Origin: Flavobacteria bacterium MS024-3C
Lineage (GTDB): Bacteria > Bacteroidota > Bacteroidia > Flavobacteriales > Flavobacteriaceae
Length of the DNA: 64,000 nucleotides
Direction of reading: 5' to 3'
Assembly (NCBI GenBank): GCA_000173115.1
Contig: ABVW01000002.1
Span: forward strand, 62,001 to 126,000
Positions 40,860 to 52,730 of the stretch are shown in pieces (the first letter of the stretch is position 1; the number at the start of each line of letters is the position of its first letter). Below the pieces are notes generated by a model. It had not been told where the DNA came from and made no database searches. It saw only the letters and a program-made list of their open reading frames with translations. The position numbers and the translations under genes were made by a program.

Positions 40860-41165
40860 ATGAGCCAAAAAATTAGAATTAAACTTAAATCCTACGACTT
40901 TAACTTGGTAGACAAGTCTGCTGAGAAGATCGTAAAGACGGTAAAGTCTACTGGTGCAGTGGTTACTGGCCCAATACCTTTGCCAACTCATAAGAAAATA
41001 TTCACAGTTTTGCGTAGCCCGCACGTGAATAAAAAATCTAGAGAGCAGTTTCAATTGAGTTCTTACAAAAGACTCCTTGATATTTACTCTTCATCTTCTA
41101 AGACCATTGACGCTCTAATGAAATTAGAGTTGCCTTCTGGAGTAGAAGTAGAGATTAAAGTGTGA
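40860..41165 (+). CDS. rpsJ: 30S ribosomal protein S10
   Basis: S10 (101 residues) belongs to the 30S head and is the NusB partner in transcription antitermination. [24 protein letters not shown] and [24 protein letters not shown] are the family blocks. It starts nine bases after fusA. The downstream gap to rplC is 172 bases, by far the longest within the superoperon, and holds several hairpins, one like an intrinsic terminator. Confidence 0.98.
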
Positions 41166-41167
41166 TA

Positions 41168-41297
41168 ATTGGCCTTAGGCCAATAACACGGAGATGGTAT
41201 CTCCATTACATGTCCTGCGCTTTGTGCAAAGGAAAAACGGATAAAAAATAATCAGGGTTGAATTATTTTTGACCCTGTTTTTTTAGGGATGCGTCCC
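41168..41297 (+). promoter_or_regulatory. Structured leader or attenuator between rpsJ and rplC
   Basis: Four hairpins can be drawn in this gap: ATTGGCC/GGCCAAT with a TTA loop (41168-41184), GGAGAT/ATCTCC with a GGT loop (41190-41204), CAGGGT/ACCCTG with a 13-base loop followed by seven T (41253-41284, terminator-like), and GGGA/TCCC (41286-41297). The terminator loop contains AATTATT, complementary to AATAATT right before the rplC ATG. The layout suggests an attenuator that lets rplC and later genes be regulated apart from rpsJ. No consensus promoter was found after the terminator. Confidence 0.55.
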
Positions 41298-41337
41298 AAA
41301 AATAGATTGAATATAAATTAATTAAATACTAATAATT

Positions 41338-41955
41338 ATGTCTGGGTTAATAGGAAGAAAGATTGGCATGACCAGTATTTTTGACGAGAATGGAAAGAAT
41401 ATTCCATGTACCGTTATTGAGACTGGCCCATGTACGGTTACCCAAGTCAGAACCGAAGAGGTAGACGGGTACAATGCCCTTCAACTTGGTTTCGATGACA
41501 AGGCAGAGAAACACGTTACTAAAGCGGCCGCAGGTCACTTTAAAAAAGCGGGTGTTTCTGCTAAAAGAAAAGTTGTTGAGTTCCGAGATTTTGAAGGAGA
41601 TTACAAATTAGGTGACACCATTGGTGTAGATCTTTTTGTTGAAGGTGAATTTGTAGATATTGCTGCAAACTCAAAAGGTAAAGGTTTTCAAGGGGTTGTT
41701 AAAAGACACGGTTTTGCCGGTGTTGGACAAGCGACTCACGGACAACACAACAGGCTAAGAGCGCCAGGATCTATTGGTGCTGCTTCCTACCCAGCAAGGG
41801 TATTCAAAGGCATGAAAATGGCTGGAAGAATGGGTGGTGTCAGAGTATCTGCTTTAAACCTTAGAATTTTAAAAGTTGTTCCAGAGAAAAACCTTTTAGT
41901 AGTAAAAGGATGTGTACCTGGTCATAAGAACGCTTACGTAACTATTGAGAAGTAA
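41338..41955 (+). CDS. rplC: 50S ribosomal protein L3
   Basis: L3 (205 residues) helps nucleate 50S assembly and reaches toward the peptidyl-transferase centre. [19 protein letters not shown] is the standard start and GHGQHN-like [13 protein letters not shown] marks the central loop. It is the first gene after a structured gap and could be the first gene of a separately controlled unit. Its stop codon overlaps the rplD start by one base (TAATG). Confidence 0.98.
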
Positions 41956-47586: not shown

Positions 47587-47651
47587 AAAATTATTATTAA
47601 TTGGTTCCAGGTTTAACAAATGTTAAAAACCGTTACCGCAAATATATACCT

Positions 47652-48050
47652 ATGTTTACAGATCCAATTTCGGATTACCTAACAAGAATTAGAAACGCAA
47701 ACAGCGCTGGCCACAGAGTGGTGAGCATTCCTGCATCTAATCTTAAAAAAGAAATCACTAAAATATTATTCGATCAAGGATATATTTTAAGCTACAAATT
47801 TGAGGAAGAAGGACCACAAGGTTCTATTAAAATCGCCCTTAAATACAACACGGCTACCAAAGAGCCAGTGATCAAAAAAATTAGTCGTATAAGTAAGCCT
47901 GGTTTACGTAAGTATGCTGGAGCTACAGAACTACCTAGAGTATTAAACGGTTTGGGTATTGCTATTGTGTCTACTTCTCACGGAGTAATGACAAGCAAAC
48001 AAGCTAAGTTAGAAAAAGTAGGTGGCGAAGTTATATGCTACGTTTATTAA
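47652..48050 (+). CDS. rpsH: 30S ribosomal protein S8
   Basis: S8 (132 residues) binds helix 21 of 16S rRNA and in E. coli represses the spc operon. The start was set at ATG 47652 ([20 protein letters not shown]), the universal N-terminus; the frame is open 17 codons earlier but those codons resemble no S8. The C-terminal [13 protein letters not shown] is the RNA-binding motif. The resulting 65-base gap from rpsN is among the longer gaps in the spc part. Confidence 0.98.
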
Positions 48051-52659: not shown

Positions 52660-52730
52660 GCCCAAGGGCATTTCACAGATACTGTAGATACGATTATCGA
52701 AGGATAGCCTTAATTCATGATCACAGTATC
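52660..52730 (+). promoter_or_regulatory. Structured gap before rpsD, candidate S4 leader
   Basis: An eight-base stem GATACTGT (52678-52685) and ACAGTATC (52723-52730) encloses 37 bases that can form two small hairpins, CGAT/ATCG and AAGG/CCTT, like a three-way junction. A short GCC/GGC hairpin (52660-52669) precedes it. The rpsD ATG follows 13 bases after. S4 represses the alpha operon in E. coli through leader RNA, and computational S4 leader motifs are known in Bacteroidetes; identity with these is not shown. Confidence 0.45.

Follow-up and report, generated by a model that had tools for sequence, protein, structure and literature searches.

In the window (the whole 64,000-nucleotide stretch of flavobacterial DNA analyzed here), rpsJ ends at position 41165 and rplC starts at 41338, leaving an intergenic gap of 172 nt (41166-41337). 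That this gap is exceptional in an otherwise tight ribosomal run had been pointed out in the preliminary description and was borne out: between rpsL and rplO, the remaining gaps that were read measured -1 to 20 nt, with the exception of rpsN-rpsH (65 nt). If the rpsH ATG is the one at 47652, the rpsN-rpsH gap (window positions 47587-47651, ~65 nt) ranks second in size within the cluster. The two 5' triloop hairpins and the terminator-like hairpin previously reported in the rpsJ-rplC gap were found at the coordinates given for them, and a 201-nt stretch folded at -49 kcal/mol, compared with -37.8 kcal/mol for dinucleotide shuffles (z = -2.8; 2 of 200 shuffles as good). The features of the locus are as follows.

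41168-41184, + strand: 5' hairpin P0a, ATTGGCC-TTA-GGCCAAT, read from the sequence and perfect in the window
41190-41204, + strand: 5' hairpin P0b, GGAGAT-GGT-ATCTCC, immediately 5' of the core
41208-41212, + strand: 5' flank of the core, ACAUG, nearly invariant in 92 sequences and included in model R1
41213-41233, + strand: hairpin P1 (UCC...GGA, inner GC/GC, pentaloop), with compensatory changes
41234-41240, + strand: 3' flank AAAACGG, invariant or nearly so in 92 sequences, candidate ligand site
41244-41270, + strand: hairpin A, AAAAAUAAU-CA-GGGU-UGA-AUUAUUUUU, antiterminator candidate that excludes hairpin B
41253-41277, + strand: hairpin B, terminator-like stem-loop CAGGGUUGAA..UUUUUGACCCUG, from the terminator scan and covariation
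41278-41284, + strand: U7 tract directly 3' of hairpin B, read from the sequence
41286-41297, + strand: short additional hairpin GGGA-TGCG-TCCC, confined to the closest species
41338-41955, + strand: rplC (uL3), an open reading frame at the head of the putatively controlled run rplC-rplD-rplW-rplB and onward

Regions upstream of rplC were collected from 120 genomes, which represented the window's genus, ~90 further genera of Flavobacteriaceae (f1), and families of the same order outside the Flavobacteriaceae; the same element was present in 92 sequences of this set, the window included. In relatives it opens with a hairpin of variable sequence, which is followed by ACAUG, P1, and AAAACGG and then, after a short linker rich in A, by two hairpins that overlap and by a U-run; in the window the conserved core occupies 41208-41284 and comprises ACAUG, P1, AAAACGG, the overlapping hairpins A and B, and the U-run. 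Both the part of the core at 41208-41240 and the competing hairpin at 41244-41270 were missing from the preliminary description. The 5' hairpins are kept across relatives as structure and not as sequence: the sequence of P0a is not conserved, and this hairpin is broken in the closest relative (L009), while P0b is retained in close relatives with compensatory change (GGAGGU..ACCUC) and cannot form in the 10 loci in which <25 nt separate rpsJ from the core. In 79 of 82 genera, the ~40 nt 5' of the core were more stably folded than shuffled versions of themselves (mean, -9.3 versus -3.8 kcal/mol). The fourth stem (41286-41297), which had also been reported, exists in the window and is confined to the closest species, being found only in L009-L013 among the gaps read.

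A structure derived from the alignment and consisting of P1 and terminator stem B (13 pairs) was scored. Overall, 98.7% of cells were paired, 9 of the 13 pairs had changes on both sides, and none of 500 shuffles scored as high; when the pairing partner was slid by one column, pairing fell to 50 to 60%. Because the shuffles keep relatedness, cognate arms were also compared with swapped arms. Covariation in relatives, the absence of which had been named beforehand as an outcome that would speak against a control element, was found for P1, A, and B, so that the element has a conserved RNA structure supported by covariation, one of the properties by which an r-leader is recognized.

The sequence CAGGGTTGAATTATTTTTGACCCTG-T7 (41253-41284; 10 pairs) was at the top of the list of terminator-like sequences in a scan of the 17-kb ribosomal cluster. 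The arms of hairpin B, CAGGGTTGAA..TTTTTGACCCTG, form a G+C-containing stem-loop (41253-41277) that is followed directly by T7 (41278-41284), the form predicted for an intrinsic terminator. Of its 8 modeled pairs, 6 showed compensatory change, with 98.6% of cells paired and cognate arms strongly preferred (z = -11.8; 0 of 2,000 shuffles); CAGGGUU..GACCCUG, for example, is replaced by CAAGGCU..AGCCUUG or CAGCGUU..AACGCUG. Among 81 distinct relatives, 79 had a longest U-run of 4 to 10 after the stem, most often 7, and one group (17 of the 81 distinct sequences) had a short run of 4 U, which makes for a weak terminator.

Hairpin A can form by pairing of the 5' arm and loop of B with the A-rich strand immediately 5' of them (AAAUAC-UUCA-GGGU-UGAA-GUAUUU). 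The preliminary description had suggested that the terminator loop might pair with bases just 5' of the rplC start codon, and this did not hold up among 81 relatives (cognate, -0.35 kcal/mol, versus shuffled, -0.60 kcal/mol); the covarying partner of the loop is instead the A-rich strand at 41244-41252, 5' of hairpin B. The outer arms of A gave a z of -10, and the part of A that B does not use gave a z of -6.9. Across 71 distinct pairs of arms, the cognate combinations formed 11.4 pairs at -5.8 kcal/mol, compared with 9.0 pairs at -3.4 kcal/mol after the 3' arms were swapped, and AAAUAC/GUAUUU was replaced by AAAGAA/UUCUUU, AAACAU/AUGUUU, or AAAAUG/CAUUUU. There is little variation in the inner helix of A (cognate test, 16 of 5,000). 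A pseudoknot between the loop and this A-rich strand was considered but disfavored: its stems would abut without a connecting loop, and we therefore prefer alternative hairpins. A and B need the same bases and so are mutually exclusive. In shortened transcripts of the window, the predicted fold was A at 60 to 64 nt and B from 68 nt, and B was the more stable of the two in 81 of 81 distinct sequences. A and B have the anatomy of a kinetic terminator/antiterminator pair and would function as one.

It is improbable, though less so than the other alternatives considered below, that the element, as a leader of the rplC operon, exerts its effect chiefly at the level of translation, mRNA stability, or mRNA processing and that B serves to stabilize the transcript and not as a terminator. 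The weak U-run in one clade would fit such a role, and r-leaders often act on translation. The U-run is, however, conserved in most genera, an A/T-rich spacer that is not conserved separates the end of the element from the start codon, 20 to 225 nt downstream, and the loop shows no conserved pairing with the translation start region, all of which speak against this alternative.

A covariance model of the element (R1) was built and used to scan 159 sampled genera of Flavobacteriaceae. The element was detected in 131 of these, with a single strong match per genome, and all 131 copies lie 20 to 225 nt upstream of rplC on the same strand; a constant position 5' of r-protein genes, likewise characteristic of r-leaders, was thus found in every genus with a match. 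In an independent named scan with at least 118 loci, rplC was downstream in 111 of 118 among the matches listed, and in the remaining 7 the sequence ends at or near the end of the locus. Of the 80 titles among the matches listed, nearly all were Flavobacteriaceae or genera thereof. Genera that carry the element include Zobellia, Maribacter, Cellulophaga, Winogradskyella, and Polaribacter. Two loci titled Rhodobacteraceae and Chlorobiota (L161 and L176) carry flavobacterial r-protein genes (L3 80% and S10 98% identical to those of the window) and are probably misbinned MAG contigs. In other families of the order and class, the scan yielded no element and only four weak matches (33 to 37 bits); outside the Flavobacteriaceae, families of the order have a short rpsJ-rplC gap or hairpins unrelated to the element. 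Five weak matches at genes other than rplC (G100, G078, G537, G585, and G178; 33 to 37 bits), namely, these four and the sole second match in a genome of the Flavobacteriaceae, were discarded as copies because each is a generic terminator-like hairpin that lacks the complete ACAUG/AAAACGG core. The R1 scan did not find the element in one large genus (g11), which we infer to be Flavobacterium. In one genome of that genus (G060; L258, 1252-1367), the rpsJ-rplC gap holds a 16-bp inverted repeat directly before TACTTTTGCA, apparently a terminator fused to an rplC promoter.

In many genera, including that of the window, the element is intercistronic within one str-S10 run, and in most genera it follows closely behind rpsJ. 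This position and the terminator form of B would also be expected if B were the plain terminator of the str operon, marking the end of the rpsJ mRNA, and the core a 3' untranslated region (UTR) or processing element of rpsJ. The loci with longer gaps make this explanation very doubtful. The core lies at least 150 nt from rpsJ in 14 loci, and the motif TAnnTTTGC, given as the flavobacterial -7 box in a paper on the F. psychrophilum transcriptome (PMC9723704), occurs within 110 nt upstream of the core in 13 of these 14 loci, compared with 9 of 191 loci with shorter gaps. Several long-gap loci have a separate terminator after rpsJ. In one locus (L225), an unrelated gene for a 953-amino-acid protein stands between rpsJ and the leader, and the core still adjoins rplC. 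The inserted gene (L225, 293-3154, - strand) has the appearance of encoding a secreted protein and splits the str-S10 run. The element thus keeps to rplC when it lies behind a promoter, after an rpsJ terminator, or after a foreign gene (L029, L048, L092, and L225). Since the core remains with rplC after separation from rpsJ, the element belongs to rplC and its operon rather than to rpsJ, and since it lies between the promoter motif and rplC in those genomes, B would be an attenuator and not an operon end. In addition, a plain terminator could do without the conserved core upstream and without a hairpin that competes with it and covaries. In some genera, then, the element occupies a 5' UTR position behind its own predicted promoter, and a 5' UTR location, a further property of r-leaders, is indicated by the promoter motif in 13 of the 14 loci with gaps of at least 150 nt. 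The earlier idea that the rplC operon has a control element of its own on the 3' side of rpsJ was thus supported, with covariation in relatives.

Within the core, the UCC/GGA pairing of P1 was present, or substituted by standard pairs, in 92 of 92 sequences. Its inner pairs change from G-C to A-U in 9 to 11 rows, and the cognate inner arms paired better than swapped ones (z = -7; 0 of 2,000 shuffles); UCCUUAAC-GAUG-GUUAAGGA, for example, corresponds to UCUUUAAC-GAAG-GUUAAAGA. We take AAAACGG, together with ACAUG and P1, as the candidate ligand site. A peptide-coding attenuator, in which the AUG-UCC of the core would begin a leader peptide whose translation sets the choice between A and B, is highly unlikely: ATG is found in 90 of 92 sequences and AUG-Ser-stop in 34 of these, but the open reading frame ranges from 2 to 42 codons with neither frame nor codons conserved, two relatives have AUA, and the changes preserve RNA pairing and not codons. 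The AUGUCC(G/U)G of the core (window positions 41210-41218) resembles the start of rplC itself (41338-41346; AUGUCUGGG), which may be chance.

When 23S loci were scanned with the P1 model and with split matrices for rRNA mimicry by P1 that would favor L4, L3, or L23 as the ligand, nothing was found above background, and the best sites were weak (12 bits; E = 0.31) or within the scores of shuffled sequences. Resemblances to rRNA noted by eye, at H40-H41, in domain III near E. coli position 1388, and in domain I near positions 433 to 472, were dropped because they did not exceed background; for some, moreover, the rRNA strand pairs elsewhere.

From comparison of sequences, we propose that the element is a family-wide r-leader of the rplC-led S10 operon that would act as a transcription attenuator (probability, roughly 0.72) and would probably allow synthesis of a large set of r-proteins to be halted once the cell has enough of them. 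With no ligand bound, hairpin A would delay or prevent hairpin B, and RNA polymerase would read on into rplC. When an r-protein encoded downstream is in excess, it would, in the direction that we infer, bind the P1 core and disfavor A, and B would terminate transcription. The genes from rplC onward would then be shut down, and rpsL-rpsG-fusA-rpsJ, including the gene for S10/NusE, would be spared. As a first guess by precedent, the ligand may be L4, with L3 or L23 as further possibilities. A published rule for r-leaders assigns the ligand from the prior ligand of the same operon (PMC7247131), and L4 controls the S10 operon in E. coli, which makes L4 the candidate. Considerably more tentative than the attenuator reading is a combination in which the ligand would be an r-protein without known self-control (L3 or L23), the two overlapping hairpins would form the switch, and the S10 operon would fall in this family into two parts, one with S10 and str and one led by rplC, with attenuation of its own.

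To our knowledge, control of the largest r-protein operon outside enterobacteria is largely unknown. The element is predicted to be a concrete control point for a family of abundant marine and soil bacteria and to separate NusE/S10 from the other proteins of the S10 operon. A scan of the whole window with Rfam 15 at gathering thresholds gave an S4-Flavobacteria leader (52692-52722) as the sole match and none at the element, which scored below the gathering threshold for all Rfam 15 families, including L4-Archaeoglobi, S4-Flavobacteria, L19-Flavobacteria, and Flavo-1; a scan of 41100-41400 at E ≤ 10 returned implausible matches only. The element is absent from Table 1 of novel r-leaders in Eckert and Weinberg 2020 (PMC7247131), where the Flavobacteria entries are S4, S15, and S16, with more L19 examples in the text. 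No description of the element was found in the literature searched, subscription papers and preprints lying outside the scope of the search. The element would thus be an addition to the r-leaders, a known kind, without a match in Rfam 15 or in the 2020 r-leader list.

The E. coli S10 leader, through which L4 (uL4) exerts both attenuation and translation control, resembles the predicted role of the element in serving the same operon and in controlling transcription at an attenuator hairpin (PMC10931766). That leader is phylogenetically narrow (PMC10931766), and the earlier suggestion that a control point moved here from a site 5' of rpsJ is not supported. Rfam revealed no relation of sequence or structure between the two at any reported threshold. 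It lies upstream of rpsJ and controls S10 too, whereas the element lies downstream of rpsJ and stays with rplC. The predicted L4-Archaeoglobi r-leader (PMC7247131) is, like the element, directly upstream of rplC-rplD-rplW-rplB but is archaeal and without an Rfam match to the element. The S4-Flavobacteria r-leader (RF03141; 52692-52722) also lies between cistrons, in the same ribosomal cluster and the same family, and its position just before rpsD means that the cluster has a second internal leader; it is, however, a single 33-nt hairpin of unrelated sequence. With terminator/antiterminator riboswitches and r-leaders in general, the element shares an aptamer-like core, mutually exclusive hairpins, and a U-run, and it is a compact case of this class, in which a terminator and a competing hairpin have one strand in common and both covary.
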